A program made the position numbers and the translations under genes. DNA of 64,000 nt. It comes from Pseudomonas sp. ADAK18. Its GTDB lineage: Bacteria > Pseudomonadota > Gammaproteobacteria > Pseudomonadales > Pseudomonadaceae. Position 1 is the first letter of the stretch, and each line of letters opens with the position of its first letter. Under the pieces are notes generated by a model that worked only from the letters and a program-made list of their open reading frames with translations, searched no databases and had not been told where the DNA came from. The stretch is from positions 2,459,001 to 2,523,000 of the forward strand of contig NZ_CP052859.1 in the NCBI RefSeq assembly GCF_012935695.1, read 5' to 3'. Below, one piece after another: positions 4,601 to 22,914 of the stretch.

Positions 4601-4688
4601 TCGTCTATCCAGGCGAGAGATGGCTTACTTTACCGATACTTGCAGGACAATGGAGAGAAGATTCGTCAGCAAAATCGGCCCTATGCTA

Positions 4689-6557
4689 ATGTCCGATCCT
4701 GCTTCCTACGACGAGTTTTTTTCAATGCCACGGACTGCCGCCTTCGAAAAGCCGCGCTGGCTGCGCGACCTGCTGCGTTTTTTACCCCTCAAAAGCCAGT
4801 TTGTGCTCTCCGGCAATGTCCGCGACCTACAAGCCAGCGAGGTCGCGCCAGGGGTGATTACCGCCCAGAGTTTCAACCTCAACCTGCGGGACGCGCTGCT
4901 ACAAGGTGGTTTTAGCCAGGTGCTGATCTGGGACCCGCTGGCCGGCTTCAGTGTGTTGGATGCACCTGGTACCGATCCCGCCAGCGGCCAGACCCTGCTG
5001 CGTGAGCTGGGCCTGACGCCGGTTGACGGTCACGCCCCGGCCGGCATCGACTTGCTGAGCGCCACCCTGCAGCGTCTGATTACCCGCGCGGGTGAGCCCG
5101 TTGCACTGATCATCGACTTCGCTTCCCGCCTGGTGGTACGCAACGATTCGTTGACCGCTGCCGAACACCAGCTGTTCACCCAAGCCCTAGTGTTGTCCCA
5201 TCAAGCCACCAGCCGCCCCGCTGGTGAACAACGCAAGCCCTTCTTTAATAGCGTGCTGTGGGTGGTGGAAAAGGAAGGCGATTTACCGGACTGGCTACTG
5301 GTAGACAACCCGCGCCTGCGCCACATCCCGGTATCCAAGCCCGACCTGCAAGCCCGCCAGGCCTTGGCCCCGGCTCTGTTGCGGGGGTTGCCCGGCGCCC
5401 AGCAGGCCACCCCTGAAGCCCAGGAGCAAGCCGCCAAGGCTTTTGTCGAAAACACCGAAGGCCTGTTGCTGCTGGACCTCAATGCCATCGCCCAACTGGC
5501 CCGGGTCGAAGCCGTGGCCATGGAGCGCATCGCCGATGCCGTGCGCCGCTACAAGGTCGGCGTTACCGAAGACCCATGGTTGAAGATCGACCGCCAGCGC
5601 ATTCGCCAGGCCGACGACTTTATCCGCCAGCGGGTCAAGGGCCAGACCCACGCGGTGACCCATATGCTGGACATCGTCAAACGCGCCATGACCGGCGTCG
5701 GTGCCAGCCGCAAGGGCAACCGGCCCCGGGGCGTGGCGTTTCTCGCCGGCCCCACCGGCGTGGGCAAGACTGAACTGGCCAAGACCATTACCAGCCTGCT
5801 GTTTGGTGACGAAGGCGCCTATATCCGCTTCGACATGTCGGAATTCAGCGCCGAACACGCCGACCAACGCCTGATCGGCGCCCCACCCGGCTATGTCGGC
5901 TATGACGTGGGCGGTGAGTTGACCAATGCGATCCGCGAGAAGCCCTTCAGCGTGGTGCTGTTCGATGAAATCGAGAAAGCCCACCCGCGAATCCTCGACA
6001 AGTTCCTGCAAATCCTCGACGACGGCGTGCTGACCTCCGGCCGTGGTGATCGGGTGTACTTCTCCGAAGCGTTGATCGTGTTTACCTCCAACCTTGGCAT
6101 CTATCGCCAGGGCGAGAACGGCGAACGGGTCGCCAATGTGTTGCCCGGCGATGCCTATGACCAGGTGCAGGGCAAGGTCCTGAGCGAGATCGAGCGTTAC
6201 TTCAAGCTGGTGCTCAATCGCCCGGAGATCCTCAACCGTATCGGCGAGAACATCATCGTCTTCGATTTCATTCGCCCTGATGTTGCCGAGCAGATCTTTA
6301 CCCAGATGGTCAGCGCCACCCTGAGCGACCTGGCCGCTCAAGAACTGCATGTCGAGCTGACCGACAGCGCCCTGCAAGCCTTGCGCGAGGTGTGCCTGCA
6401 CGACCTGTCCAATGGCGGCCGCGGGATTCGCAACCAGTTGGAAGCGCACCTGCTCAACCCATTGGCCCGCGCCCTGTTCGATCAAGATGCACAACCCGGC
6501 GAGCACTTCAGTTTGACCCGACTCGACAGCCAAGGGTTGTCCCTGGAGCGTCGTTGA
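4689..6557 (+). CDS. ClpB-like AAA+ ATPase, first gene of four-gene operon
   Basis: The C-terminal half is a ClpA/ClpB D2-type AAA+ module: Walker A GPTGVGKTE (5748-5771), Walker B VVLFDEIEKAHP (around 5955-5985), the arginine-finger region NRPEILNRIGENIIVFDF and a sensor-2-like GGRGIRNQLEAHL. The N-terminal half resembles a second AAA fold, with LSGNVRDL and a Walker-B-like ALIIDFASRL, but has no P-loop. ClpB's N domain and coiled-coil M domain are missing. The start is uncertain: in-frame ATGs exist at 4620, 4650, 4683, 4689 and 4725 and none has a strong ribosome site. A downstream start is preferred because the divergent gene begins at 4600. Its stop overlaps the TTG of the next gene (TTGA). 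It is likely an energy-driven remodeller or sensor for the proteins encoded downstream. Confidence 0.85.
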   Translation: MSDPASYDEFFSMPRTAAFEKPRWLRDLLRFLPLKSQFVLSGNVRDLQASEVAPGVITAQSFNLNLRDALLQGGFSQVLIWDPLAGFSVLDAPGTDPASGQTLLRELGLTPVDGHAPAGIDLLSATLQRLITRAGEPVALIIDFASRLVVRNDSLTAAEHQLFTQALVLSHQATSRPAGEQRKPFFNSVLWVVEKEGDLPDWLLVDNPRLRHIPVSKPDLQARQALAPALLRGLPGAQQATPEAQEQAAKAFVENTEGLLLLDLNAIAQLARVEAVAMERIADAVRRYKVGVTEDPWLKIDRQRIRQADDFIRQRVKGQTHAVTHMLDIVKRAMTGVGASRKGNRPRGVAFLAGPTGVGKTELAKTITSLLFGDEGAYIRFDMSEFSAEHADQRLIGAPPGYVGYDVGGELTNAIREKPFSVVLFDEIEKAHPRILDKFLQILDDGVLTSGRGDRVYFSEALIVFTSNLGIYRQGENGERVANVLPGDAYDQVQGKVLSEIERYFKLVLNRPEILNRIGENIIVFDFIRPDVAEQIFTQMVSATLSDLAAQELHVELTDSALQALREVCLHDLSNGGRGIRNQLEAHLLNPLARALFDQDAQPGEHFSLTRLDSQGLSLERR

Positions 6558-7207
6558 AGCTGTCCCGGGTGCATTTTCCGGTCACCACGTTGGGGCCAGG
6601 TAATCGCCTGGGCATCTGGTTCCAGGGCTGCAGCATCCGCTGTCCCGGCTGTATTTCTGCCGACACTTGGGGCCCGGGCAAACACGCGATCGAACTGGAG
6701 GCACTGCTGACGGATTTGGCGCCGTGGCTGGAACACGCCGACGGCATCACCATTTCCGGCGGTGAGCCCTTCGACCAGCCCGACGCCCTGCTGGCCTTGC
6801 TTGGCGGTCTGCGCCGAAGCGCCCACGTTGATATCCTGGTGTACAGCGGCCATGCCCGCGAACAGCTTGAACCTTGGCTGGCCCAGGCCGACGGTTTGAT
6901 CGACGCCTTGATCTGCGACCCCTTTGAGCAACAACAGCCACAAACCCTGGTCCTGCGGGGCAGCGACAACCAACGCCTGATACTTTTAAGCGAGCTGGGC
7001 CGCCAGCGCTTCGCGGGCTATGAACGCCCGCTGAATGCCAGCGACCGGGCTCTGGATTTGATGTTCGACGACGATGGCAGCATCTGGATGGCTGGAATCC
7101 CGGGACGCGATGACGTGTTGCGCTTGCGCGACCTGTTGCAGTCCCAAGGTCACCAGCTCCAGACCAGCGCCCACACTTCACGCCGCCGTTTACCGGAATT
7201 GCCTTAA
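6554..7207 (+). CDS. Radical SAM activase-like protein (NrdG/PflA type)
   Basis: A 217-residue protein of the glycyl-radical-enzyme-activase class. The [4Fe-4S] motif is C26-SIR-C30-PG-C33 inside WFQGCSIRCPGC, followed by ISGGEPFDQPD, the SAM-binding GGE motif. The short length and FQGC context match NrdG-like activases, with no extra ferredoxin domain. The start is the TTG at 6554, which overlaps the previous gene's TGA; the longer upstream frame lies in the AAA+ gene and has no homology. Its TAA overlaps the next ATG (TAATG). No glycyl radical enzyme is encoded nearby, so the substrate is unknown; it may modify a protein of this operon or process a small molecule. Confidence 0.85.
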   Translation: MKLSRVHFPVTTLGPGNRLGIWFQGCSIRCPGCISADTWGPGKHAIELEALLTDLAPWLEHADGITISGGEPFDQPDALLALLGGLRRSAHVDILVYSGHAREQLEPWLAQADGLIDALICDPFEQQQPQTLVLRGSDNQRLILLSELGRQRFAGYERPLNASDRALDLMFDDDGSIWMAGIPGRDDVLRLRDLLQSQGHQLQTSAHTSRRRLPELP

Positions 7208-10200
7208 TGATACGTTTTTGCCCCAACTGCCAGACCGAACGCTCCCTGGCCGAACTGTTCTGCGAAGGCAGCGTCCACGAGCAGCCATGTGGCTGGGACT
7301 TGTCCAGCGTTGCCATCCAGCAAGCCGGCTGGCGCCCGCAGACGGTGGTAACCGTCGAAGTGGCCGAGCAACAAACCGCCTTGCAGTGCAGTAATGGTCA
7401 CCCGATGGAGGCCGGCGACCTGATGTGCATGGTCTGCGATGCTGAGCCTGCCACGGACGCGCCAGCCGAAGAGGTGCCGGTTGAAACTACCAGCAGCGAA
7501 ACCCTGATCGACGGCTGGCGCCTGCTGCGCCAGATCAGCAGCACCGATGGCGTGCGTGAGCGCTACCAGGCCGAGCAGGTCAGCGACGGCCGTCAGGCGG
7601 TGCTGACCTTGTACCGTGCCGGCTCCGAACCCGACCCCGCGGTCTACGAAGTGCTGCGTCGCCTGCCCCGCGAACATGTGCCAGAAATCATCGCCACGGG
7701 CCGTTGGGACGACCGCGCCTATGAAATCGCCGAAGAACTCACCGGCGGCACCCTGTCCGAGTTGGGCATCGTCGTCACCGACCTGACGGCCGTTGAGCAT
7801 ATCGTGCGTGAACTGGGCCAGGCCCTGCACGCCTTCAGCGAAGCCGGCCTGCGCCACCGTGACCTGCGCCCGGGCACGTTGCTGGTGCGCAGCCGCGAAC
7901 CGCTGGACCTGGTGATCAGCGGTTTCGGTTCGGCACGCTTGTCAGAGTTCGACCTGGACATCGTCTCGCCCCTGGAAACCAGCCGCTACATGGCTCCCGA
8001 AGCCATCGCCGGTGGCGTCGCCGCCGCGTCCGACTGGTGGAGCCTGGGGATGATCCTGTTGGAGCAATTGACCCAAGGCGAGTGCTTTGCCGGGATCAAC
8101 CCCAACGCTTATCTGATTCATGTGCTGGCCAGCGGCGTGCCGTTGCCGGAAGACCTCGACCCGCGTCTCGACCTGCTACTGCGTGGCCTGCTGGCCCGTG
8201 ACCGCCATCAACGCTGGCAGTGGCCGCAGGTCCAGGCCTGGCTGGCCGGTGAAGACGTAACGGCCCCGGCGTCCCATGTCGCCGAACAGGATGACGCTGA
8301 AGGCGCAACTATTGCCCTCGGCACGCGGCGCTTCCGTAAACCGGCGCTGTTTGCCCTTGGCGCTGCTGAAACTGAACACTGGCCGCAAGCGGTGGATCAC
8401 CTGCTGCGCGGGGTGATTGTGACCTGGGCCGAACAGGCCGGGCTGTCACCCAAGCTGCTGGCGGGCCTGCGTCAGGTGGCCCAGCACGATGGCCTTGAAG
8501 ATGACGTACGGCTGATGCTCGCGCTGAAACTGCTGAACCCGGAAATGCCGCTGATCCAGCGCGGCGAAATCGTCACCCCGGGTTGGCTGCTGGAACACCC
8601 ATTGGAAGGCTACCGACTGATCACCGGCCCTGCGCCGGACCTGCTGGAACGTCTTAGCCAACTGGTCAGCGACAGCGGCGAAAACTGGCTATCGCGCCTG
8701 AAAAACCGCGCCGAGCAGGTGCGTCAACGGGCGCTGCACCAAAGCATTGAGCTGGACGAAGAACAACTGCGGATCTACCTGCTTTCCACCTCCCGCGCGC
8801 GCCTCGCCGCGCAATGGGAAGAACGCCAGCGCCTGCTGCCGGACAGCGACCATGCCGGATTACTGTCGTTGTCCGACCGTCGGCTGATCAGCGAAGAAGA
8901 CCTGATCGTGCTGCTGAGCGCTGCCATCGGCCAGTTCCGCTCCGTAGACGGCATTCTCGAAGAGGCTGCGGGCCTCGCCAGGGACGTCGAGGTGCTGCTG
9001 TTTGATCAGGACGCCGCTCGAGCCTTGCTGGCGTTGCCGCGCCAGGACATCTATCGCCAGGTGGACGAGCGCATCACCGGTTTTGCCCGCTGCGGCGTGC
9101 CGGCCGTGGACGAATGGGCGGAACAGTTTCGTCTGGAACGGCGCATGCCCCTGGCCCGCGCACTGGTGTTGCTGGCGGTGCCGGCCGAACAATGGCTGGA
9201 GCCGCAAAAACAGCACTATGTGGCGCAGATCCTCGATTTCTTCGAGAAAAAGGTCTCCAGCGCGGTGATGCGCGGACCGCTGGTGCGTATGAGCATCGGC
9301 AAGACCACCGCCCGGGTTGACCTGCAAGAGTTGCACAGCGAGCGCCGCCCAGCCGCTGCGTTGCTTGATCACCTGCTGCAACGCAATGCCCAGTCGGTGC
9401 CGCTGGACGCGGCGATCTTTGCCGACAATCCCGGCTTGGAGCAGCGCCTTAACAGCCTCAGCCGGCAAAGCTCGCTGTACAAGCGCGACACGGGTATCGA
9501 CGGCCTGTACCTGGGCTTCCCGTTCTTGCTGACCCGCGACCCGCGTGGCACCACCCGTACGCGCATCGCACCGTTGCTGTTATGGCCGGTGAAGTTGCAG
9601 CTGGAAGTGGGCAGCCGTGGCCAGGTGTCACTGGTGTTCGACAGTGAACGCGAAGAAGTGCGCCTCAACCCGGCCCTTGAAGGCATGCTCGGCATCGACG
9701 GCTGCAAAGCTTGGCGCCAGGCCGCCGATGAAGTACTGGGCCGCTCCTCGCTGAAAGCCGCCGATGTGATGGATGCCTTTGGCATGCTCGCCACCAGCCG
9801 CGCCCGAGTGTTGGGCGCCCTGCCCCCGGTGGGCACCGAAGTGGTGGCGTATCAGGATGAACTGGCCTGTGCGGCGGTGTTCTTCCACGTGACCTTTATG
9901 GGGCAAGCGATTGGCGAAGACCTGCGCCAGCTCAAGGCCTTGCCGCCCGGCGGCACCGGCCTGGAAACCGCACTGCGCCTCAATGGCAGCAGCACCGAAG
10001 CACCGGATCAGGAACACGTGCCGGAGTTGCAGCGCTTCTTCACCGTCGCCAGCGACCCCTCCCAGGAAGCCGCCGTACTGCAAGCGCGCATGGCCCCCGG
10101 CTTGCTGGTCGAAGGCCCGCCTGGCACCGGCAAGAGCCAGACCATCGTCAATATGGTGGCCGACGCCATTGGCCGCCAACGCAGCCTGCTGATCGTCTGC

Positions 10201-13200
10201 CAGAAGCACGCGGCCCTGGAAGTGGTGCATAAGCGCCTGGTGGCCGAGGGTTTGAGCAACCGCATCGTTATGCTCAATGACGTCAACCGCGACCGTGAGC
10301 CGGTGATTCGCGGGGTGCGCGAGCAGTTGGAAGAACTGTTCAAAACCGAATTGATTACCCAGCCCTGGCAGCGTCAGCGCGAACGCCTGGCCGCTCGGAT
10401 TGAAGCGCTGGAAGGTGAACTGGATCGCTTCCATCAAAGCCTGCACAAGGTTGATGAGCACAGTGGCTTGAGTTATCGCAGCCTGATCGGTGAGTTGATC
10501 GAACTGGAACGCGGTGAGCCGCCGCTGGAGATTCCGGCCCTGCGCCAACGCCTGGCGGCCCTGGACATCGCCGACCTGACGCGCCTGGAAGAAAACTGCG
10601 CGCCGTTGGCCCGGTTCTGGTTGCCGGCCCGTTACGAAGGTAGCCCGCTGGCCCAGTTGCAGGCCTTCCCCACGGACAAGGCCACTTTGGCTGCGTTCGA
10701 CGACAGCTTCCAGCGCTTCTGCGCCTGTGAAACCGCACGCCTGGACGTTCTGCAAGCCCACCCCGCACCGTTTGAGGTCGACGACCCAGCGCCTTATCGC
10801 GCCTGGCTCGACAGCCATGTGCAAACACTGCTGGCGCTGAATGATGAGCAACGGCAACTGTTGGCCCGCTGGTTACCGCTGTTCCGTGCCGACAGCCAGG
10901 GCGAAAGCCTGATCCAGGAAGTGGCCGGGCTTGAGCGCCAGTTGCAGCAGTGCGCCGCCGATCAGTACAGCCCTGCCTTGTCTTCGCCGTTGTCCGCGCT
11001 GGCCAATGCCGAGTTGCGTACGCTGCAAAACAACGCAGCCAACGTGATCAAGGGCACCTCCTGGCTGGCCCGCCTGAGCCCCGTACGGTTTGTGCGACGC
11101 CGCAAACTGCTGGGATTCATCAGCGAATCCGGCGATGTGGCCGGCGACGAGCGCTTGCCGGCCCTGTTGGCCGCCGCGCAGTTGGAAAGCCAGTGGCGCC
11201 CGTTGCGTGCCGAACTGCAAAAGCTGCATCAACAGCTAGGCCTGCCGGCCATCGCCGCTGACAGTGGTCCGGACCTGCATCGCCAAAGCATTACCGACCT
11301 CAATCGTCTGAACGAAGTGCGCAGCCTTGCCGACGGTCTACGCCAAGCGCCTCGTACTGAACAAGTAGATGCCGCCGTACTGACCGGCGAACGCCAGTCC
11401 TTTGAAACCCTGCTGGCCCAGTACGACGCTGCCTTCATCCGCCACAACGCGCGCCAGAACAGCCTGGAAACCCTCAAGCGCCTGGCCGATTGGCTGGACG
11501 CAGGCTTGGTGCGAGCGCTGCAACACGCCGTCGAACGCAACCAAAGCAACCTGCTGGCCCTGAATCCGCTGACTGCCGCCCTGCCCCACGTCGGCGCCTA
11601 CCAGCAGTTCCGCGCCCGCTCCGGGCAACTGACCGAGGCCGATACCGCCTTGTTCGCCTTGCTGCGTGAATACCAGCCAGCCCTGGAGGCCTACCCGGCC
11701 GAACAGTTGGACGCGGTGGTCCGCCGCCTGCTCAACCGCGAAGCGCGCCTGGGCTGGAAGCGCAACCTGGAACAGCAAAACCCCGAGCTGATGCTGGAGC
11801 ACAGCGAAACCCAGGACAAAATCACCAGCCTCGCCGAGGCCGATACCCAGATGCGCGGGCTCAACCGCCAGTTGCTCAGCGAGGGCATCGACCTCAGCCG
11901 TCTCGGTACGCGTAAGGAATGGGAAGACGTCACCCGCCTCACCGGCAAGCGCTCCCGGCGTTTGCGTGAGTTTATCGAGCTGGGGGCCAATCTTGGCCTG
12001 ATGAGTGTGCGCCCGGTGTGGTTGATGAACCCGGACGTGGCCAGCCGCGTCCTGCCCTTGAAAGCCGGGCTGTTCGACACCGTGATCTACGACGAAGCCT
12101 CGCAGATGCCGGTGGAGTTCGCCTTGCCGACGTTGTATCGCGGTCGCGTCACGGTGGTCAGTGGTGACGAGAAACAAATGCCGCCCACCGCATTTTTCTC
12201 CAGCCGCATTGAAAGCGACGAAGCCGAGCTGTTCGACGGTGACATGCCCGAAGACCAGGCCGATGAAGAACAGCGCGAAGCCTTCGAAGACACCTGGAAC
12301 CGCCGGGAAATCAAAGACTGCCCGGACCTGCTACAACTGGCCCGCAGTTCGCTGCCTGCCACCACCTTGCAGATTCACTATCGTTCGGCCTACCGCGAAC
12401 TCATCGGTTTCTCCAACGCCTCGTTCTACGGCAACCGCCTGAGCATTCCGGTACGTCACCCGCAGGCCAACATCCTCAGTATCAAGCCGCTGGAGCTGAT
12501 CCGCGTCGACGGTGTATACCAGAACCAGACCAACGAGCAGGAAGCCGAACGCGTCGTCGATCACTTGGCCCAGTTGTGGCTCAAGCCATATGCCGAACGC
12601 CCATCCGTGGGCGTCGTGACCTTCAACCGCAAGCAGGCGGACTTGATCGAGGAACGCCTGGAACTGCGTGCCGAGCAGGACGAAGCCTTCCGCGCTGCCT
12701 ACAGCCAGGAACGCGAGCGCAGCGAAGACGGTGAAGACATGTCGGTGTTCGTCAAGAACGTCGAGAACGTGCAGGGGGATGAGCGCGACATCATCGTCTT
12801 TTCCTCGACCTTCGGCCGCAACACCCAAGGCACCTTCCGCCGCAATTTTGGTGTACTGGGGCAGACCGGTGGTGAACGCCGGTTGAACGTAGCGGTAACC
12901 CGGGCGCGCAAGAAGGTGGTCATGATCACCTCGATGCCGATCGGCGATATCTCCGACATGCTCAGTACCCAGCGTCCACCGGCTAGCCCACGGGATTACC
13001 TACAAGGCTACCTGGAATATGCACGGGCCCTCTCCGCCGGCGAGTTCGACACCAGCCACAGTGTGCTGGGCCGCCTGCTGACGGAACGCACGCAAACCCG
13101 CAAGCAACAGGCAACCTTGGGCGACGGCTTCACCGAAGCGGTGGCCGCCTACGTGCAAACCCTCGGCTGGACTGCGGCGCCCGCCAACGAAGGCGATGCC

Positions 13201-13482
13201 TTCGGCCTGGACTTTGCCATCGAGAACCCGCAAACCGGGCTCTACGCTCTGGGCATCGAATGTGACACCCCACGGCATGCGCTGCTAGCCAGGGCGCGTT
13301 CCCGGGAAATCTGGCGCCCGTCGGTACTGCGCCGGGCGATCCCACATATTCACCGGGTTTCGTCCCAGGGCTGGTATCAGGACGTCGAGGGGGAAAAGGC
13401 CCTGCTCAAGGCGGCGATAGAGCAAGCCCTCAAGGTCGTGCAGCCAGTTCAACCGCTGCTGGACGTGGAGCCTGCACAATGA
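7207..13482 (+). CDS. Zn-ribbon/pseudokinase/SF1 helicase/MTES_1575 nuclease fusion
   Basis: A 2091-residue protein. Domains in order: a zinc ribbon (C5, C8, C19, C28), a second one (C61, H65, C74, C77), and a Ser/Thr kinase-like domain (about 99-360) with HRDLRP at 217-222 and APE at 263-265. The glycine loop, the VAIK lysine and the DFG aspartate (S238-G-F-G) are lost. A helical middle region follows, then a DUF4011-like block (KRDTGIDGLYLGFPFL, near 765). The Dna2/NAM7-type SF1 helicase has Walker A GPPGTGKSQ (970-978), DEASQMP (1629), GDEKQMPP, NVQGDERD (about 1855) and NVAVTRARKK. The C-terminal MTES_1575-type REase fold has D2002, E2018 and D2020 in LDFAIE and GIECD. It is cytosolic. 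The closest named idea is the kinase-helicase protein of Mokosh type I, but no PLD nuclease is present. Confidence 0.88.
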   Translation: MIRFCPNCQTERSLAELFCEGSVHEQPCGWDLSSVAIQQAGWRPQTVVTVEVAEQQTALQCSNGHPMEAGDLMCMVCDAEPATDAPAEEVPVETTSSETLIDGWRLLRQISSTDGVRERYQAEQVSDGRQAVLTLYRAGSEPDPAVYEVLRRLPREHVPEIIATGRWDDRAYEIAEELTGGTLSELGIVVTDLTAVEHIVRELGQALHAFSEAGLRHRDLRPGTLLVRSREPLDLVISGFGSARLSEFDLDIVSPLETSRYMAPEAIAGGVAAASDWWSLGMILLEQLTQGECFAGINPNAYLIHVLASGVPLPEDLDPRLDLLLRGLLARDRHQRWQWPQVQAWLAGEDVTAPASHVAEQDDAEGATIALGTRRFRKPALFALGAAETEHWPQAVDHLLRGVIVTWAEQAGLSPKLLAGLRQVAQHDGLEDDVRLMLALKLLNPEMPLIQRGEIVTPGWLLEHPLEGYRLITGPAPDLLERLSQLVSDSGENWLSRLKNRAEQVRQRALHQSIELDEEQLRIYLLSTSRARLAAQWEERQRLLPDSDHAGLLSLSDRRLISEEDLIVLLSAAIGQFRSVDGILEEAAGLARDVEVLLFDQDAARALLALPRQDIYRQVDERITGFARCGVPAVDEWAEQFRLERRMPLARALVLLAVPAEQWLEPQKQHYVAQILDFFEKKVSSAVMRGPLVRMSIGKTTARVDLQELHSERRPAAALLDHLLQRNAQSVPLDAAIFADNPGLEQRLNSLSRQSSLYKRDTGIDGLYLGFPFLLTRDPRGTTRTRIAPLLLWPVKLQLEVGSRGQVSLVFDSEREEVRLNPALEGMLGIDGCKAWRQAADEVLGRSSLKAADVMDAFGMLATSRARVLGALPPVGTEVVAYQDELACAAVFFHVTFMGQAIGEDLRQLKALPPGGTGLETALRLNGSSTEAPDQEHVPELQRFFTVASDPSQEAAVLQARMAPGLLVEGPPGTGKSQTIVNMVADAIGRQRSLLIVCQKHAALEVVHKRLVAEGLSNRIVMLNDVNRDREPVIRGVREQLEELFKTELITQPWQRQRERLAARIEALEGELDRFHQSLHKVDEHSGLSYRSLIGELIELERGEPPLEIPALRQRLAALDIADLTRLEENCAPLARFWLPARYEGSPLAQLQAFPTDKATLAAFDDSFQRFCACETARLDVLQAHPAPFEVDDPAPYRAWLDSHVQTLLALNDEQRQLLARWLPLFRADSQGESLIQEVAGLERQLQQCAADQYSPALSSPLSALANAELRTLQNNAANVIKGTSWLARLSPVRFVRRRKLLGFISESGDVAGDERLPALLAAAQLESQWRPLRAELQKLHQQLGLPAIAADSGPDLHRQSITDLNRLNEVRSLADGLRQAPRTEQVDAAVLTGERQSFETLLAQYDAAFIRHNARQNSLETLKRLADWLDAGLVRALQHAVERNQSNLLALNPLTAALPHVGAYQQFRARSGQLTEADTALFALLREYQPALEAYPAEQLDAVVRRLLNREARLGWKRNLEQQNPELMLEHSETQDKITSLAEADTQMRGLNRQLLSEGIDLSRLGTRKEWEDVTRLTGKRSRRLREFIELGANLGLMSVRPVWLMNPDVASRVLPLKAGLFDTVIYDEASQMPVEFALPTLYRGRVTVVSGDEKQMPPTAFFSSRIESDEAELFDGDMPEDQADEEQREAFEDTWNRREIKDCPDLLQLARSSLPATTLQIHYRSAYRELIGFSNASFYGNRLSIPVRHPQANILSIKPLELIRVDGVYQNQTNEQEAERVVDHLAQLWLKPYAERPSVGVVTFNRKQADLIEERLELRAEQDEAFRAAYSQERERSEDGEDMSVFVKNVENVQGDERDIIVFSSTFGRNTQGTFRRNFGVLGQTGGERRLNVAVTRARKKVVMITSMPIGDISDMLSTQRPPASPRDYLQGYLEYARALSAGEFDTSHSVLGRLLTERTQTRKQQATLGDGFTEAVAAYVQTLGWTAAPANEGDAFGLDFAIENPQTGLYALGIECDTPRHALLARARSREIWRPSVLRRAIPHIHRVSSQGWYQDVEGEKALLKAAIEQALKVVQPVQPLLDVEPAQ

Positions 13483-14825
13483 GCGGCCCTAAAGTGGTGC
13501 GGATCGTCACCCGCGAAGAAATCATCGCGATTTGCCAGGGGCATCTGAATCGCCTGGAAAAGGCCGTGGCTCGCTGGGAAGCCCAAGGGATGAAGATCGG
13601 TGAGTTGAGCGACAGTGAGCGCGCGGCCACTCACGCCCGGCGTGATCAGTTGCGCCAGTTACTGGCCGACGACCAGTTACTGGAGCTGCAAAAGCGTGTG
13701 CCGATCGAAATCGAGTTCCTGTCCCGGGATATGGCACAGCGCGAAGAGCAGGCGGTGAGCAAGGCCATTAACGTCCGCCAGCAGCAACGCAACCTGCGGG
13801 AGAGCGCCGCAACGCTGGCCAAGGCCCTGGAAGGCAAGAACGCAGCACCTGCCCTGCTCGACCAATTGCATGAAGTAAGCGCCGGTAAGCTGGCGGACCA
13901 AGCCCAGGCCTTGCTGGCCCAAGGGTTTGCCCTGCTGAGTGCAGCGCCTCAGGCTGAACAGCTGACAGAGCGCCAACGGCAATTGGCCCAGCAGTTGAAA
14001 ACCGGCGAGCCCGTTATTCAGTTCAGTCAGTGGCTGGCCGACCAAGCGCGGCAAACCGTGCGCGACCCGCGACTGGAGCGGATCGATCAACATATCGCCC
14101 GCCTGCAAACCCTGGACGGCCCGGCGATTGCTGCGCCTTTCCTGCTGCAACTGAGCCGCCTGGAAAACGAAACGCGTGAAACCCAACGCAATCTGCTGCT
14201 GGACAGCCTGGTATTGGACCTGGCCCAGGCCACCCTGACGCATCAACAGCGTCGCCTGGCCTTTGAGCAGTTGCAGTTGTTGGCGGCAGAAGTCGCGGCA
14301 TTAGGCGCAGCGAACAACGCTGAACTGTTGGAGCAGGTGGCTGCCAGCGAAGCTGATAGGGACCTGGCCACCCTTGCGCAACTGACGGAACAGTGCCAGG
14401 CGCAGATTGCCCTTGAACTGCGACAACGCGCGGCCCTGGCCCGGCGTCAGGCCGTGCTGGAGGGGTTGGGCAGCCTGGGTTATGAAGTACGCGAGGGCAT
14501 GGCCACCGCGTGGGCCAACGAGGGTCGGGTGGTATTGCGCAAAACGGCGACACCGGGAGTTGGGGTGGAAGTCGGCGGCAATGCCGAAAGTGGCCGCCTG
14601 CAAGTGCGCGCCGTGGCCCTCAGTGCAGACCATGACGCCCGTCGGGACCGCGACATCGAGACGATCTGGTGCGGCGAGTTCCAGCGTCTGCAGGCATTGC
14701 TGGCGTCCCGGGGCGATGACCTGAGTATCGAGCGAGCATTGGCGGTAGGAGAGGTGCCGCTCAAGGTCGTCGCTTTGGATGCGTCTGTAGTACCACGAGA
14801 AGTTGCACAGCACAGAACGCTCTAG
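13479..14825 (+). CDS. Coiled-coil protein, fourth gene of the operon
   Basis: A 448-residue protein with no enzyme motif that I recognise. It starts MSGPKVVRIVTREEI, then is almost wholly alpha-helical: long Gln, Leu, Ala and Glu rich segments with heptad character run from about residue 15 to 330. A compact C-terminal part (about 330-430, around EGLGSLGYEVREGMATAW and VVLRKTATPGVGVEV) looks like a small beta-containing domain. The ATGA overlap with the helicase gene shows translational coupling. Such a protein could be a scaffold or adaptor for the ATPase and helicase-nuclease. No signal peptide or membrane helix is present. Confidence 0.75.
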   Translation: MSGPKVVRIVTREEIIAICQGHLNRLEKAVARWEAQGMKIGELSDSERAATHARRDQLRQLLADDQLLELQKRVPIEIEFLSRDMAQREEQAVSKAINVRQQQRNLRESAATLAKALEGKNAAPALLDQLHEVSAGKLADQAQALLAQGFALLSAAPQAEQLTERQRQLAQQLKTGEPVIQFSQWLADQARQTVRDPRLERIDQHIARLQTLDGPAIAAPFLLQLSRLENETRETQRNLLLDSLVLDLAQATLTHQQRRLAFEQLQLLAAEVAALGAANNAELLEQVAASEADRDLATLAQLTEQCQAQIALELRQRAALARRQAVLEGLGSLGYEVREGMATAWANEGRVVLRKTATPGVGVEVGGNAESGRLQVRAVALSADHDARRDRDIETIWCGEFQRLQALLASRGDDLSIERALAVGEVPLKVVALDASVVPREVAQHRTL

Positions 14826-14941
14826 TTCGGGCTGCAACAAGGCATTCACAGATAGGGGTTACAGTGTGAAAAGGCTCTTGTTCGCCAATCTAGCGATGTT
14901 TTAGCTGAACACTAGCTGTCTGCTCGCAAAATAAACGAGTT

Positions 14942-15222: not shown

Positions 15223-16257
15223 TTGAAACCCTACCCAATTCATTGCGTGTCGATCGTTATCCCGGTCTACAACGAAGAACAGAGCCTGCCTGAACTGCTG
15301 CGGCGCACCAGCGCGGCCTGCAAGCAGTTGGCTTATGAATACGAAATCATCCTGGTGGACGACGGTAGTCGCGACACTTCCGCCCAACTGCTGGAAGACG
15401 CTGCTGCCGAACCCGACAGCAACGTGGTGGCGGTGATCCTCAACCGTAACTACGGTCAACACGCCGCCATCATGGCGGGCTTCGAGCACTGCCGCGGTGA
15501 CGTGGTGATTACCCTCGACGCCGACCTGCAAAACCCGCCGGAAGAAATCCCGCGCCTGGTCGAGCAAGCCGCCCTGGGCTACGACGTGGTCGCCACCGTA
15601 CGCAACAACCGCCAGGACTCGGCCTTCCGCCGCTGGCCTTCGCGCCTGATCAACCTGGCTGTACAGCGCTCCACCGGCGTGGCCATGAGTGACTACGGCT
15701 GCATGCTGCGCGCTTACCGCCGCACCATCGTCGACGCGATGCTGGCCTGCCGCGAGCGCAGCACCTTTATCCCGATCCTGGCCAACAGCTTCGCCCGCCA
15801 CACCACGGAAATCCTGGTGCATCACGCCGAGCGTGAACACGGTGAGTCCAAATACAGCCCGATGCGCCTGATCAGCCTGATGTTCGACCTGCTGACCTGC
15901 ATGACCACCACGCCCTTGCGCCTGCTGAGCATCGTTGGTTTCAGCCTCGCGGCCCTGGGCATGCTCTTCGCCTTTGCGCTGATCGTGATGCGCCTGGCCT
16001 TCGGTGCCGGCTGGGCCGGTGACGGTACCTTTGTACTGTTCGCCGTATTGTTCGTGTTTACCGGTGGCCAGTTCATCGGCATGGGCCTTCTGGGTGAATA
16101 CCTGGGCCGCATGTACAGTGACGTGCGCGCACGTCCACGGTTCTTTATTGAAAAAGTGCTGCGCAACCAACCGGCAGCACCGGCTCCTACCGTCATTGTC
16201 GACGGCCTGAGCTCCTCTCATACTTCCACTTCTCCTTCCGATCAGGTTTCGTCATGA
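15223..16257 (+). CDS. arnC: ArnC, undecaprenyl-P 4-deoxy-4-formamido-L-Ara transferase
   Basis: A 344-residue GT2 glycosyltransferase that moves the formamido sugar from UDP onto undecaprenyl phosphate at the inner membrane face, the first lipid-linked step in making L-Ara4N for lipid A. The GT-A part has [15 protein letters not shown] and LVDDGSRD, and the metal site DADLQNPP. Two C-terminal membrane helices (about 235-265 and 270-300) anchor it. The TTG start at 15223 ([13 protein letters not shown]) is preceded by GAGG about ten bases upstream and matches the length of ArnC homologues. It is here the first gene of the operon. arnB, which makes the amino sugar nucleotide, is not upstream. 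It overlaps arnA by ATGA. Confidence 0.95.
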
Positions 16258-18245
16258 ATCCAAAAGCTGTTGTCTTCGCCTACCATGATATTGGCTGTGC
16301 AGGCATTGAAGCCCTGCTCAACGCGGGTTACGACATCGCCGCCGTGTTTACCCATGCCGATGACCCCAAGGAAAACAACTTCTACGGTTCCGTCGCACAG
16401 CTGTGCGCCCGCAACGGCATTCCAGTGCATGCCCCGGAAGACGCCAACCACCCGCTGTGGATCGAGCGCATCGCCAAACTGAACCCTGAGTACATCTTCT
16501 CTTTCTACTACCGCAATCTGCTGAGCGAGGCCTTGTTGGCCACCGCGAGCAAAGGCGCGTTCAACCTGCACGGCTCCTTGCTGCCGACATACCGTGGCCG
16601 CGCACCGGCCAACTGGGTACTGGTCAAGGGCGAAACCGAAACCGGCGTGACCCTGCACCGTATGGTCAAGCGTGCCGATGCCGGCGCGATCCTGGCTCAG
16701 CAAAAAGTCGCTATCGAGCGCACCGACACCGGCCTGACCCTACACGCCAAACTGCGTGAAGCCGCCAGCAACCTGCTGCGTGATGCGCTGCCACAACTGG
16801 CCCAAGGCAAGTTGACGGAAACCGCCCAGGATGAAAGCAAAGCCACCTACTTCGGTCGCCGCACCGCTGCCGACGGCAAGCTTGAGTGGAAAAAACCGGC
16901 TGAAGAGCTGTTCAACCTGGTTCGCGCTGTTACCCAGCCTTATCCAGGTGCGTTCTGCGCCGTGGGCGAGCACAAGCTGATCGTCTGGAGTGCCGAAGTC
17001 GTCAAAGGCAACGAAGGTCAGGCCCCTGGCCGTGTGATCAGCGTCGACCCGCTGCGCATTGCCTGCGGTGAAGACTCGCTGGTGATCACTTTCGGTCAAC
17101 GCAACGAAAACGGCCTGTACCTGGCCGGCCCATCCCTGGCCGACGAACTGGGCCTGGTGGACGGTTCCGTCCTGCGCGGCGCCGAGTCGGGTCGCAAGCC
17201 ACGTCGTACCCGCGTACTGATCCTGGGCGTTAACGGCTTTATCGGTAACCACCTGTCCGAGCGCCTGCTGCGTGACGATCGTTACGAAGTCTACGGCCTG
17301 GACATCGGCTCCGACGCCATCGAGCGCCTGCGCAGCCACCCAAACTTCCATTACGTGGAAGGCGACATCAGCATCCACTCCGAGTGGATCGAGTACCACA
17401 TCAAGAAGTGCGACGTGGTCCTGCCGCTGGTAGCCATCGCCACCCCGATCGAATACACCCGTAACCCGCTGCGCGTGTTCGAACTGGACTTCGAAGAGAA
17501 CCTGAAACTGGTTCGCTACTGCGTCAAGTACAACAAGCGCGTGATCTTCCCGTCGACTTCCGAAGTCTATGGCATGTGCCAGGACGAAAACTTCGACGAA
17601 GACACCTCCAACCTGGTAGTCGGTCCGATCAACAAGCAACGCTGGATCTACTCGGTCTCCAAGCAATTGCTGGACCGCGTGATCTGGGCTTACGGCGACA
17701 AAGGCCTGAAGTTCACCCTGTTCCGTCCGTTCAACTGGATGGGCCCGCGCCTCGACCGCCTGGACTCGGCCCGTATTGGCAGCTCCCGTGCCATCACCCA
17801 GCTGATTCTGAACCTGGTGGAAGGCACGCCAATCCGTCTGTTCGACGGTGGCGAGCAGAAGCGCTGCTTCACTGATATCGCCGACGGCATCGAAGCCCTG
17901 GCGCGCATCATTGATAACGACAACGATAACTGCAACGGTCAGATCATCAACATCGGCAACCCGGAAAACGAAGCCAGCATCCGTCAGTTGGGCGAAGAAC
18001 TGCTGCGTCAGTTCGAAGCTCACCCACTGCGCGCCAACTTCCCTCCGTTCGCCGGTTTCCGCGACGTGGAGAGCAAGGCGTTCTACGGCACCGGTTACCA
18101 GGACGTGGCACACCGCAAGCCAAGCATCGAAAACGCCAAGCGCCTGCTGGACTGGGAGCCTACCGTGGAGATGAGCGAAACCATCGGCAACACCCTGGAT
18201 TTCTTCCTGCGTGAAGCCATGCTCGAAATCGCGGACAAGCGTTGA
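16254..18245 (+). CDS. arnA: ArnA, bifunctional formyltransferase/UDP-GlcA decarboxylase
   Basis: A 663-residue cytosolic enzyme with two parts. The N-terminal formyltransferase (about 1-305) has the [16 protein letters not shown] motif, whose His and Asn are catalytic neighbours in the family, and transfers a formyl group from 10-formyl-THF to UDP-L-Ara4N. The C-terminal SDR part (about 318-663), starting [14 protein letters not shown] for NAD binding with STSEVYG and the Y-x-x-x-K motif in YSVSK, oxidatively decarboxylates UDP-glucuronate to the 4-keto-pentose. The 4-keto-pentose would normally be aminated by ArnB. Length is normal for ArnA. It is coupled to arnC and arnD by overlapping codons. 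Confidence 0.96.
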
Positions 18246-19129
18246 TGCAGGCAGGTCTACGCATTGACGTCGACACCTACCGAGGCACCCGTGATGGGGT
18301 GCCGAAGTTGTTGGAACTGCTCGATGAAGCCGGGATCAAGGCAACGTTCTTCTTCAGTGTCGGGCCGGACAATATGGGGCGCCACTTGTGGCGCCTGATC
18401 CGCCCGCAATTTCTGTGGAAGATGTTGCGCTCCAATGCAGCCGGTTTGTATGGCTGGGACATTTTGCTGGCCGGCACCGCCTGGCCAGGCAAACCCATTG
18501 GCCGCGACCTGGGGCATCTGATGCGCCAGGCCAAGGCTGCCGGCCATGAAGTGGGCCTGCACGCCTGGGATCACCACGGCTGGCAGGCCAATACCGGACG
18601 CTGGAGCGATACCCAGTTGATCGAACAGATTCGCCGTGGCGTCGACACCTTGAGCGACATTCTGGGTGATCGCGTGGACTGCTCGGCGGCCGCCGGTTGG
18701 CGTGCCGATGAGCGCGTGGTGCAAGCCAAGCAAGGTTTCAATTTCCGTTACAACAGTGATTGTCGCGGTGACAGCCTGTTTCGGCCAACCCTGGCCGATG
18801 GCAGTGCTGGCACCCCACAAATTCCGGTGGACCTGCCGACCTTCGACGAAGTCGTCGGGCCGGTGGTGGCTGCCAAAGATTTCAATGCCTACATCCTCGA
18901 TCGGTTTACCGAATCGAAGTTGAACGTTTATACGATCCACGCAGAAGTAGAAGGGATTCTGATGGCCAATGAGTTTCGTCAGTTGCTGGCCCACGCCGGG
19001 CAGCGCGGCATTGACTTCCAACCGTTGGGTAACCTGTTGCCCGCCGACCTTGCCACCCTGCCCCAGCAACAGCTGGTGCGCGGTGCGTTGAGTGGCCGCG
19101 AGGGTTGGCTGGGAGTGCAACAGGCATGA
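18245..19129 (+). CDS. arnD: ArnD, formamido-Ara-phosphoundecaprenol deformylase
   Basis: A 294-residue NodB-like polysaccharide deacetylase that removes the formyl group from the undecaprenyl-linked sugar, making transfer of free L-Ara4N possible. The first catalytic motif, [13 protein letters not shown], carries the metal-binding aspartates; ATFFFSVG and [11 protein letters not shown] (His metal ligands) follow. The start is the ATG at 18245, overlapping the arnA TGA as TGATG; a TTG one codon earlier is also in frame. It acts at the cytoplasmic face of the membrane. The ATGA overlap with arnT shows coupling. Confidence 0.95.
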
Positions 19130-20781
19130 TCCGCCGTTGGGCTTTGCCCCTGCTTCTGCTGGCCTTTGGTGTGTTCTACCTGCTGCCATTGGCCACCCAT
19201 GGCCTGTGGATTCCCGACGAAACCCGCTATGCACAAATCAGCCAGGAAATGCTGCTGACCGGCAAGTGGGCGTCGCCGCACTTCATGGGCATCCGCTACT
19301 TCGAAAAACCGGCGGCCGGCTACTGGATGATCGCGCTGGGCCAGGCGATTTTTGGCCAGAACCTGTTCGGCGTGCGCTTCGCCTCGGCCTTGAGCACCGG
19401 CTTGAGCATCCTGCTGGTGTATATCGTCGCCCGGCGGTTGTGGAACGACCCGCGCAAGAGTCTGGTCAGCGCTGTGCTGTACATGAGTTTTGTCAGCGTG
19501 GCGTTGCTGGGCGGCTACGCCAACCTGGATCCGCAATTCACCTTCTGGGTCAACCTGACGGGCGCCGCCTTGTGGTTCTGTTTCGACAGCACGACACGTC
19601 GGGGCAAGTTGTGGTCCTGGGCCCTGCTGGGTTTCGCCTGTGGCATGGGGTTCATGACCAAGGGTTTCCTGGCTTGGCTGCTGCCGGTATTGATCGCCCT
19701 GCCCTACGCAATCTGGCAAAAGCGCTTTCGTGAATTGCTGGGCTATGGCCTGGTGGCCGTGGTGGTGGCGATTGTCGTAAGCCTGCCGTGGGCGCTGGCC
19801 GTGCATGCCCAGGAAGCGGATTATTGGAACTTCTTTTTCTGGCACGAGCATATCCAGCGCTTTGCCGGTGACGACGCCCAGCACGCAGAACCGTTCTGGT
19901 ATTACCTGCCGCTGCTGGTCGCCTTCTGCCTGCCGTGGATGGCCCTGCTGCCTTCGACCCTGAAACAGGCGTGGCAGGAAAAACGTACGCAGAAGACCGC
20001 GTACCTGCTGCTCTGGCTGTTGATGCCCCTGGCGTTCTTCAGCCTGGCCAAAGGCAAACTGCCGTCCTACATCATGCCGTGCCTGCTGCCTCTGGCCTTA
20101 CTGATGGGCAATACCCTGGCAGACAAACTGGCCCAGGCCCGCGGTCGTGTGCTGCGCATCAACGGTTGGCTGAACCTGATCCTAGGCGTGCTCGCGTTGC
20201 TGGCCCTGACCTGGTTCCAACTGAAGAAGCCGGTGTACGAACACAACGAAGAGCTGCTGAGCCTGGTGCTGGTGTTCGTGTTCCTGTTCGGCTGGATCAT
20301 CGCCAACGTTCTGCAAGCGGCTCGTCCACTGCACCTGTGGGCCGCACCGGTGGTTGGCACCTGGCTGCTGGTGGCATTGGTTCCAGCGGCGCTGCCTCAC
20401 TCGGTGGTTTATAACAAGACTCCCGACCAGTTCATCATTGATCACATCCCAGAGCTCAAGCAGGCCAAGCAACTGCTGAGCAACGATCTGGGAGCCGCCT
20501 CCGCCTTGTCCTGGCGCCTGGCCCACCCGGAAATCATGCTCTACAACACCGTCGGCGAAGTGAAATACGGCATTGCCTTCCCGGATACCGCCTATCGCAA
20601 GATCGACACTGCAGAAGTCCAGCAATGGATGACGGATGCCCGAAAACAGGGCCCGGTGGGTGTGGTGATGCGGGTCAAAGGCGACGATGAGCAACGCGAA
20701 GTGGACTTGCTGCCCCAAGACGGCAAGCGCTACGAGCAAGGCAATCTCGTGATCCTGTTTTTCCCGCAGAGTGCGCCATGA
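19126..20781 (+). CDS. arnT: ArnT, lipid A L-Ara4N transferase
   Basis: A 551-residue GT83 integral membrane glycosyltransferase that transfers L-Ara4N from undecaprenyl phosphate to lipid A phosphates on the periplasmic side, lowering negative charge and giving polymyxin resistance. The first periplasmic loop has the conserved [17 protein letters not shown] acidic motif, followed by [16 protein letters not shown]. About twelve hydrophobic segments fill the first 420 residues and a soluble periplasmic tail closes the protein. The start is the ATG at 19126 overlapping the arnD stop; an ATG seven codons earlier lies inside arnD. Confidence 0.95.
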
Positions 20782-21125
20782 CCTCTCTGCTCCTGCTGCT
20801 GGTGGCCTGCTTGTTGACCTGTATGGGCCAGGTGTCCCAGAAGTTTGCCGTCGAGAGCTGGCGCGACCAGCCCGACGGTTGGGCAACCAAGCTGCGCTCG
20901 CCGTGGCTATGGTCGGCGTTGATCTGCCTGGGCCTGGGCTTACTGGTCTGGCTGCTGGTACTGCAACGCCTGGAAGTCGGCGTGGCCTACCCCATGCTCA
21001 GCCTGAACTTCGTGCTGGTGACCCTGGTGGCACGTTTTGTCTTTCATGAACACATTGACGGTCGGCACTGGCTGGGTGTGGCCCTGGTGATTGCCGGCGT
21101 TGTGCTGTTGGGGCGCCAAGTATGA
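20778..21125 (+). CDS. arnE: ArnE, L-Ara4N-phosphoundecaprenol flippase subunit
   Basis: A 115-residue SMR-like membrane protein with four predicted helices. With ArnF it is thought to flip undecaprenyl-phosphate-L-Ara4N to the periplasmic leaflet so that ArnT can use it. The segment [19 protein letters not shown] and the [14 protein letters not shown] ending are typical of ArnE. It is coupled on both sides by ATGA overlaps. Confidence 0.92.
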
Positions 21126-21535
21126 GCCGGGTTCGCGGTTTTGCCTTAGCCCTGGGCAGCGTCGCGCTGGTCAGCAGCGCCCAGTTGGGCATGCGCTGGA
21201 GCATGACCCGCCTGCCGTTGCCCACCGAGTGGCTGAACGCTCTCAACAGCGGCTCCATCGACCTCGGCGCGCTCGGTGTGGTGATCCTGGCGATCATCGC
21301 CTACGCCCTGTCGATGCTCTGCTGGCTGGGCGCCCTGCGGGATCTGCCCTTGGGCCGTGCCTATTCGCTGCTGAGCGTCAGTTATGCGCTGGTGTACCTG
21401 CTGGCTGCCAGCCTGCCGGTCTTCAACGAGCACTTTTCACTTTCTAAAACGGCGGGGGTGGCGTTGGTCATCTTCGGTGTACTGACTATCAACTCTCGTC
21501 GTGCTAGCACCACAAGTCCCAGGAATGCCCCATGA
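21122..21535 (+). CDS. arnF: ArnF, L-Ara4N-phosphoundecaprenol flippase subunit
   Basis: A 137-residue membrane protein, the partner of ArnE, with four hydrophobic segments and the ArnF-type stretch [20 protein letters not shown]. The tail is polar ([12 protein letters not shown]). It overlaps arnE and ugd by four bases each. Together the two small proteins form the presumed heterodimeric lipid flippase. Confidence 0.92.
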
Positions 21536-22911
21536 AAATCAGTGTATTTGGTAGTGGTTACGTCGGTCTGGTACAAGCCACCGTACTGGCCGAAGTTGGT
21601 CACGATGTCATCTGCATGGATGTTGACGAGAAAAAGGTCAAGCTACTGCAGCAAGGCCACGTGAGCATTTTCGAGCCAGGGCTTGCGGCCATGGTCAAAG
21701 AAAACCTCGAAAGCAAGCGCCTGCAATTTACCTATGACGAGAAGCTCGCTGTCGAGCATGGCGAAGTGTTGTTCATTGCGGTGGGCACGCCTTCGGATGA
21801 AGACGGTTCGGCAGACCTGAAATACGTGCTATCGGTGGGCGATGCCGTCGCCCGTCACCGTGTTGCGCCCGTCATCCTGGTGGAGAAGTCAACCGTGCCC
21901 GTCGGCACCGGTGACACCCTGCGCGCGCATATGGAAAAAACCTTGCACGCGGCCGGACGCAGCCTTGAGTTCGATATCGTCTCCAACCCGGAATTTCTCA
22001 AGGAAGGCTCGGCCGTCGCCGACTGCCGCCGTCCAGACCGTATCGTCATCGGTTGTGAGCGCGAAGAAGTGCGTGAGGTGATGCGTGAGCTGTATGCACC
22101 CTTCAACCGCAACCATGACCGCATCATCTTTATGGACCTGCGCAGCGCCGAGCTGACCAAGTACGCCGCCAACTGCATGCTGGCCACCAAGATCAGCTTT
22201 ATCAACCAGATCGCCGAACTGGCCGAACACCTGGGTGCAGACATCGAAGCCGTACGCCTGGGCATCGGTGCCGACTCGCGTATTGGTTACCACTTTATCT
22301 ACCCGGGCTGCGGTTATGGCGGCTCGTGCTTCCCCAAAGACATGCGCGCGCTGATCCACAGCGCCAAGGAAGCCAACTGCTCCAGCGACCTGCTCGAAGC
22401 AGTGGAAGCCATCAACCAGCGCCAGAAAAGCAAGCTGTTCGAGCGCGTCAACGCCTTCTTCAAGGGCGAACTGCGCGGCAAGACCTTCGCCCTGTGGGGC
22501 CTGGCATTCAAGCCCAACACCGACGACATGCGTGATGCGCCAAGCCGGGTGTTGATGGAAGCGTTGTGGGCGGCCGGTGCCAATGTGCGCGCGTTTGACC
22601 CGGAAGCCATGCAGGAAACCCAGCGCCTGTACGGCGATGACCCGCGCCTGATGTTGATGGGCACGCCGGAGTCGACCCTGAGCGGTTCCGACGCCCTGAT
22701 CATCTGCACCGAATGGCAGCAATTCAAGGCCCCGGATTTCGACTTGATCCACGAACGCCTCAAGACGCCGGTGATCTTCGACGGGCGCAACCTGTACGAC
22801 GGCGAACGTCTGGCGCGCAAAGGCTTCCAGTACTTCCCGATAGGCCGTGGCGATTCGTGCAACCTGCCTATCCCCCAACAACAATGGGTATCTGCGGTCA
22901 AGGAAGCGTAA
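21532..22911 (+). CDS. ugd: UDP-glucose 6-dehydrogenase
   Basis: A 459-residue cytosolic enzyme that oxidises UDP-glucose to UDP-glucuronate with two NAD, supplying the substrate of ArnA. The N-terminal Rossmann motif is [20 protein letters not shown]. The active site cysteine is in [13 protein letters not shown], with Lys in the [14 protein letters not shown] block. The length is normal. Its place at the end of the arn operon, with ATGA coupling to arnF, is the usual Pseudomonas arrangement (also called pmrE). Confidence 0.95.
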
Positions 22912-22914
22912 AAC

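Follow-up and report, generated by a model that had tools for sequence, protein, structure and literature searches.

Several described defence systems share parts with the locus reported here. Hhe (NF042953) is a DUF4011 anti-phage protein, in which we take DUF4011, a helicase and a nuclease to follow one another in that order. Mokosh pairs a kinase with a helicase, the kinase being a catalytically competent Ser/Thr enzyme, and Dodola is a defence system with a ClpB-like AAA+ protein and a DUF6414 partner (DolA) beside it. The locus lies in a stretch of 64,000 nucleotides of Pseudomonas sp. ADAK18 (NZ_CP052859.1, positions 2,459,001 to 2,523,000; hereafter the window, to whose positions all coordinates refer unless another contig is named). 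Four genes at 4689-14825 form a compact cassette of 10.1 kb that encodes a ClpB-like ATPase (gene 1), an NrdG-like radical S-adenosylmethionine (SAM) enzyme (gene 2), a multidomain helicase-nuclease protein of 2091 residues (gene 3) and a coiled-coil protein (gene 4). We lean towards the view that the cassette is a self-contained anti-invader unit, with gene 3 as sensor and effector, genes 1 and 2 as a control pair and gene 4 as a partner. This is the best reading because the distribution of the cassette is patchy, mobile and nearly all-or-none, because defence genes are found among its neighbours and because the helicase-nuclease half of gene 3 resembles ProA and Hhe, though below their cut-offs.

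The four open reading frames (ORFs) are open over lengths beyond chance and overlap one another, the TTG start of gene 2 overlapping the stop of gene 1, as an earlier sequence-only reading of this DNA had claimed. Its descriptions of the four products also held up. The AAA_2 match and the nearly invariant ATPase motifs agree with a ClpB-like gene 1, the NrdG match of gene 2 confirms a likeness, Pfam domains and conserved motifs account for the helicase and the MTES_1575 nuclease of gene 3, and the structure model of gene 4 contains a long coiled coil (Table 1). That reading knew of no named system with this exact gene set, and we likewise found no name for the four-gene combination in family databases (PADLOC, NCBIfam) or in the literature searched. 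The helicase-nuclease effector type is known.

The domains of gene 3 include DUF4011, a superfamily 1 (SF1) helicase and a C-terminal nuclease, in the order given above for Hhe. The best matches of its helicase-nuclease half are ProA (NF058533; 522 bits, best stretch residues 936-2076) and the PADLOC model PDC-S37 (499 bits, residues 938-2078). In contrast to these proteins, gene 3 has 900 N-terminal residues that fall outside the best stretch, and its score does not reach the ProA cut-off of 1500 bits, arguing against membership of that family. The Hhe model matches the helicase and nuclease (best stretch residues 1316-2063) with 323 bits, far short of the 2000 bits set as its curated cut-off. 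Gene 3 is thus not a member of Hhe either, from which it also differs by its zinc-ribbon-like clusters, dead kinase and helical region and by the nearly constant company of three partner genes. A helicase core related to that of Mokosh is present (PADLOC models MkoA, 180 bits, and MkoC, 102 bits), but the best stretches lie within the helicase only (residues 1622-1911, 1621-1936 and 950-1072), neither model matches over its full length, the gene 3 kinase lacks catalytic residues and the partner genes are not alike; the cassette is therefore not a Mokosh system. The sequence-only reading had also proposed an NTP (nucleoside triphosphate)-dependent conflict system. According to the available part of their published description, such systems are based on MoxR-vWA couples or GTPases (PMC7159879). 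No MoxR or vWA family, and no GTPase hub, was matched in the cassette by Pfam, and we dropped this assignment.

Alignment of 80 gene 3 sequences showed which of its parts are conserved. In the zinc-ribbon-like clusters four Cys are present in all 80, and C61, H65, C74 and C77 of the second cluster are each found in 79. In the kinase-like domain, the Lys of the VAIK site (residues 133-136) is missing from every sequence, the DFG Asp is present in two and the catalytic-loop Asn in seven, while the HRD Asp is retained in 76. Judged by these residues, the kinase is degenerate. The region that follows was assigned to no family; residues 1-760 were modelled with AlphaFold (mean pLDDT, the predicted local distance difference test, 86.8), and in this model the region is all-helical. 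The Walker A motif of the helicase, at residue 970, and its motifs II, III, V and VI are nearly invariant, and SMUBP2 is among its solved relatives. In the nuclease, D2002 and E2018 are present in 80 of 80 sequences and D2020 in 79.

We then examined the co-inheritance of the four genes in the 80 best of 254 relatives ranked by gene 3 similarity, or 81 loci with the window; because of this choice, the sample favours complete cassettes. With a match of more than 60 bits to each window protein as the threshold, the co-localised search that the sequence-only reading had suggested found the complete set, in a single order and on one strand, at 76 of the 81 loci. This count includes one locus with gene 4 in two frames (L023) and one with a short gene 4 near a contig end (L051). 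Four of the five exceptions are cut off by contig ends (L037, L065, L067 and L087). The fifth is Saezia, with only gene 3 at the locus and genes 1, 2 and 4 not adjacent; the sole radical SAM match elsewhere in its genome resembles a true NrdG beside NrdD. Pairwise correlations between the distance matrices of the four genes range from 0.87 to 0.93 (76 loci), and nearest neighbours agree between genes at 38 to 53 of the 76 loci, showing that the gene histories are common broadly, not perfectly. The loci cover Alpha-, Beta- and Gammaproteobacteria and one Simkania metagenome-assembled genome. No fifth gene is constant beside the cassette, as no flank family occurs in more than 13 loci. Of 298 Pseudomonas genomes, 12 (4%), the window's own included, carry gene 4, and these same 12 carry gene 2. 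In an earlier search of 57 relatives, 34 had a gene 3 match at E<=0.001, and gene 3 was nearly full length in 3 of the 36 genomes of the genus (G000, G010 and G003).

Three side observations concern these loci. In Saezia sanguinis (L093, 9998-16423), gene 3 stands alone beside a lon-like gene and has a long branch in the tree, as a solo or decaying form. The Simkania (Chlamydiota) contig (L090) holds a whole cassette that the tree places among Alphaproteobacteria, through transfer or a binning error. A family of large proteins (up to 1167 residues) recurs on either side of the cassette at L053, L064, L069, L070, L078 and L090; we presume that it may be a second helicase-nuclease.

Comparison by blastn with two cassette-free genomes of the genus (G017, L118, and G004, L119) showed matches to the window that stop at 4668 and restart at 14901. 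In these genomes the window's flanks lie 67 and 103 bp apart and the cassette is cleanly absent. The upstream region with a tyrosine integrase is present in both, and the integrase is therefore outside the insertion. The position of the cassette also varies among carriers: arnC, which lies 3' of it in the window, does not occur in the 1.5 kb around gene 4 in any of the other 11 carriers of the genus. Genome-wide, arnC had no match at E<=1e-60 in four of these, was on another contig in four and lay 0.38-1.35 Mb away in three. Grouped at the DNA level, by which distant taxa count apart even with a common gene order, the 81 loci have 53 flank contexts. Gene 3 was found at a coverage of at least 80% in 8 of 72,556 plasmid records, one from Caballeronia and seven from Rhizobium; the three Rhizobium plasmids examined were all typed as conjugative. 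As a separate observation, a Microvirga plasmid (L124, 11926-15224) carries a truncated gene 3 directly after an ISKra4 transposase gene, followed by a gene 4 of normal length; the remnant and gene 4 adjoin type I restriction endonuclease and SIR2 genes.

For the neighbourhood, up to five genes on each side were considered in the 53 contexts, and a random draw of 294 of the 442 called genes was scanned with PADLOC (E<=1e-20), proteins above 900 residues being dropped. Among the families listed (25 of 63 and 25 of 40 in two flank sets) were GajB, LmuB, JetA, BilC, BilD, HamC, DUF4297, SIR2, PDC-S20, MTase_II, AbiEi, AbiEii, IetA and RTasHel; the flank models represent Gabija, Lamassu, Wadjet, Bil, Hachiman, AbiE, a type II methylase and a DRT protein. 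For the control, 19 random 20-kb regions were used, in which 147 of 329 genes were scanned; these matched only mad3, RtcR, PDC-S07 and a GlgB-like model; mad3 and RtcR models occurred in flanks and control alike and were counted for neither. Thus, in a semi-quantitative comparison with a rough control that was not taxon-matched, defence genes are commoner beside the cassette. The sequence-only reading had named constant presence at one core position across the genus, with no defence-island association, as an outcome that would speak against its proposal. This outcome was not observed: the cassette is present in only 12 of 298 genomes, occupies differing sites, has an empty counterpart site in two relatives, is carried by plasmids and has defence neighbours.

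Other observations tell against an anti-invader role. The control covered Pseudomonadales only and the flanks came from several classes, with rough gene calls in both, and the neighbour excess is therefore an indication rather than a measured enrichment. The defence-island check with PADLOC thus gave many defence families in the flanks against almost none in the control, but the window itself does not lie in an island, its own neighbours being an arn-type operon and ordinary genes. The cassette is rare: among 293 genomes of the order one has gene 2, and among 398 of the phylum three have gene 4, the window's own counted in each. Genes 1, 2 and 4 may be dispensable in Saezia, or the Saezia copy may be decaying. 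In four of the eight plasmid records (H4, H6, H7 and H8) gene 3 aligns in two or three pieces, and some plasmid copies may therefore be broken. No relative was found in viral contigs with two peptide patterns (IMG/VR); gene 4 had no match in 50,697 phage records, and gene 2 had only partial matches there, of less than 60% identity, none covering 80%. The mean pairwise identity of gene 3 is 56% (76 loci), a conservation that appears high for a defence effector, and its tree groups by class, with 5 label changes against a least possible 3. Finally, a P. aeruginosa gene described like gene 3 (DUF4011) is reported to be in every isolate, and at core defence hotspot 1 it was used to mark the core border rather than being counted as an immune system (PMC10250203). 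As it is in every isolate, it behaves as a core gene in that species.

The lack of phage-borne relatives in the IMG/VR scan and, for gene 4, in phage records, the long retention of the cassette and the JetA and LmuB models among its neighbours would fit an anti-plasmid or anti-conjugation system that targets incoming mobile DNA, for which Wadjet and Lamassu provide the comparison. However, the cassette is itself found on conjugative plasmids, and its closest named relatives are called anti-phage; we consider this explanation decidedly unlikely. The main rival to an anti-invader role is a genome-maintenance or stress machine, in which the helicase-nuclease would process damaged or stalled host nucleic acid (R-loops, broken forks or aberrant RNA-DNA), with genes 1 and 2 as its regulators during oxidative or anaerobic stress. 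Arguments for it are the core status reported for P. aeruginosa (PMC10250203), slow evolution, the near-class-level clustering of the gene 3 tree and the presence of SMUBP2 among the solved relatives of the SF1 helicase. In contrast, a presence of 4% in the genus, clean absence from relatives, plasmid carriage and defence-rich neighbours do not, and we think this rival unlikely. For the original claim of an anti-phage defence locus, then, patchiness, empty sites, varied positions, conjugative plasmids, neighbours and the likeness to ProA and Hhe are in favour, and core status in P. aeruginosa and conservation are against.

The P. aeruginosa case deserves a closer comparison. The flank given for core defence hotspot 1 is tRNA-Pro, merR, ihfA and pheT (PMC10250203), and these same four genes lie 7.4 kb from the end of the cassette in P. 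otitidis (L027). Two sequence clusters, with 2367 and 3452 members, are represented by P. aeruginosa proteins that share 74% identity with gene 3. Because of this context and these clusters, the border genes of hotspot 1 are very probably this cassette, PA14_RS11765 being matched by description and context. The right-flank genes differ in that they were published as two invariant border markers, present in every isolate, and not as a system, and the description "small" fits gene 4, with its 448 residues, only loosely. We assume that PA2725-PA2728 are the PAO1 names of the cassette and that PA2727 is gene 3. PA2727 is reported to be a helicase-like gene, read together with PA2728 in another strain (PMC3697988, PMC4918941). 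The PA2727 sequences of PAO1 and clone CHA differ by a one-base indel that is also known from six other strains (PMC3697988), and a change in the gene is recorded between two isolates from one patient (PMC4918941). On the assumption that PA2727 is gene 3, PAO1 may have a broken copy, and this could be the reason that work on that strain revealed no function; the published differences would also suggest that P. aeruginosa tolerates altered copies, contrary to a genome-maintenance role.

Gene 1 starts with about 290 residues that have no Pfam match, followed by a single AAA_2 domain. Its best solved relatives are ClpB and ClpC, and its Walker A and B motifs, sensor 1, Arg finger, sensor 2 and pore loop are nearly invariant in 79 sequences. 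It is not a ClpB chaperone, which has two AAA domains, as its TIGR03346 score of 265 bits lies below the cut-off of 1232. The Dodola protein DolB matches the AAA domain of gene 1 (66 bits), but only within residues 307-492; none of the four proteins matches DUF6414 (DolA) and no flank family exceeds 13 loci, arguing against a Dodola system. Among solved structures, gene 2 matches only pyruvate formate-lyase activating enzymes (E<=0.01), and its CX3CX2C cysteines, GGE and RGSDNQ are present in 79 of 79 sequences. Gene 2 shares the radical SAM fold, CX3CX2C and an RGSxNQ motif with NrdG, the class III ribonucleotide reductase activase, and the RGSxNQ motif is also present in the Saezia NrdG. In contrast to NrdG, it scores 68.3 bits against an NCBIfam cut-off of 126.1, and we rejected this identity. 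The window's genome has no match for NrdD or Gly_radical, in searches for which control genomes were positive for both families (6 of 14 for NrdD); among the 12 carriers of the genus, NrdD was found in five and Gly_radical in none. AAA+ proteins are paired with radical activases in glycyl-radical enzyme operons, such as that of benzylsuccinate synthase. From the preserved catalytic motifs and the degenerate kinase we conclude that the four catalytic parts have been retained by selection alongside a kinase that is dead.

Viperins are radical SAM enzymes that produce antiviral nucleotides, and ligand binding is conceivable for the conserved dead kinase. Both points would suit an abortive small-molecule system, in which a nucleotide made or altered by the radical SAM enzyme binds the pseudokinase and frees the nuclease to cut indiscriminately and so kill the infected cell. 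Gene 2 is NrdG-like, however, and no viperin model matched the cassette proteins in Pfam, PADLOC and NCBIfam scans; there is also no known small-molecule product, and we hold such a system to be highly improbable.

In the model of gene 4, the two ends of the long coiled coil appear to close into a single alpha/beta head, made of strand 2-10 and residues 335-427. The N-terminal SGPK sequence is conserved (S2 in all 77 sequences, G3, P4 and K5 in 76 each), as are E364, Q375, D390 and E394 (75 each), C398 (76) and K429 (74). Residues 390, 394 and 398 are spaced so as to lie on the same face of a predicted helix. Together, the conserved residues may form a putative binding or reaction site.

The anti-invader reading suggests the following scheme, in which we infer anti-phage or anti-plasmid action, nucleic-acid cleavage by gene 3 and all regulatory steps from sequence. 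The DUF4011-type SF1 helicase of gene 3 would engage foreign or aberrant nucleic acid, which the coupled C-terminal nuclease would cut. Regulation or docking would fall to the zinc ribbons, the dead kinase and the helical region, the kinase binding a ligand or partner without phosphorylation. Sensing by the zinc ribbons and the nuclease as effector, as first proposed, would be compatible with this scheme. Gene 4 would be a partner specific to the cassette, and its conserved head would either dock on gene 3 or be the part on which the radical enzyme acts. The gene 1 unfoldase would remodel gene 3 or gene 4, allowing the modification by gene 2 that licenses or arms the nuclease. In a more specific and speculative form, which we consider doubtful, the cassette would be a radical-gated immune nuclease: the unfoldase would open gene 4 or gene 3, gene 2 would place a radical-derived mark on it and so switch the helicase-nuclease on or off, and the border marker of hotspot 1 would itself be an immune system. 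Candidate sites for the mark are the SGPK N terminus or Cys398 of gene 4, or the regulatory parts of gene 3.

Table 1. Positions in the window of the four genes, the gene 3 domains and the inserted segment.
Feature	Position	Strand	Basis
Gene 1: AAA+ unfoldase, ClpB-D2-like	4689..6557	+	AAA_2 2e-44, ClpB_D2-small; TIGR03346
Gene 2: NrdG-like radical SAM enzyme, 217 residues	6554..7207	+	Fer4_12 1.1e-19, NrdG 6.9e-19
Gene 3: 2091-residue zinc ribbon/pseudokinase/helical/DUF4011/SF1 helicase/nuclease protein	7207..13482	+	
Two zinc-ribbon-like Cys/His clusters, gene 3 residues 5-28 and 61-77	7219..7437	+	
Pseudokinase domain, gene 3 residues 97-349	7495..8253	+	
All-helical region, no family, gene 3 residues 379-740	8341..9426	+	AlphaFold model
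DUF4011, gene 3 residues 741-828	9427..9690	+	Pfam 8.4e-12
SF1 (Upf1/IGHMBP2-like) helicase with long insert, gene 3 residues 936-1911	10012..12939	+	AAA_11/AAA_12, IGHMBP2 family
MTES_1575 restriction-endonuclease-fold nuclease, gene 3 residues 1975-2071	13129..13419	+	Pfam 1.5e-16
Gene 4: coiled-coil protein, composite alpha/beta head	13479..14825	+	Structure model, mean pLDDT 87.6
Whole cassette, inserted segment by comparison with two cassette-free genomes of the genus	4669..14900	+	blastn

Elsewhere in the window, the arn-type operon directly after the cassette (15223-24537) starts with an arnC-like gene. It encodes a glycosyltransferase, a formyltransferase/epimerase fusion, a polysaccharide deacetylase, two PMT-family transferases, two small EamA-like proteins and a UDP-glucose dehydrogenase. 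Two large ORFs of 1258 and 1189 codons with lower third-position G+C (48116-51892 on the minus strand and 58905-62474 on the plus strand) flank a CheB/CheR/hybrid sensor kinase cluster; neither has a Pfam or PADLOC match.

Because the cassette is compact, occurs in three proteobacterial classes and has natural relatives with and without it, the question of its function is directly testable. If it is a defence system, a known type of helicase-nuclease effector would be joined to two regulators for which the searches made gave no immune precedent, namely an NrdG-like enzyme with no recognised glycyl-radical partner in its host and, Dodola apart, a ClpB-type unfoldase. Genes printed as neutral border markers of a P. 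aeruginosa hotspot would then belong to defence itself. Should the nuclease be radical-gated, immunity would be tied to the redox state and SAM supply of the cell, and hotspot 1 would have grown beside an immune system that is its own border marker.

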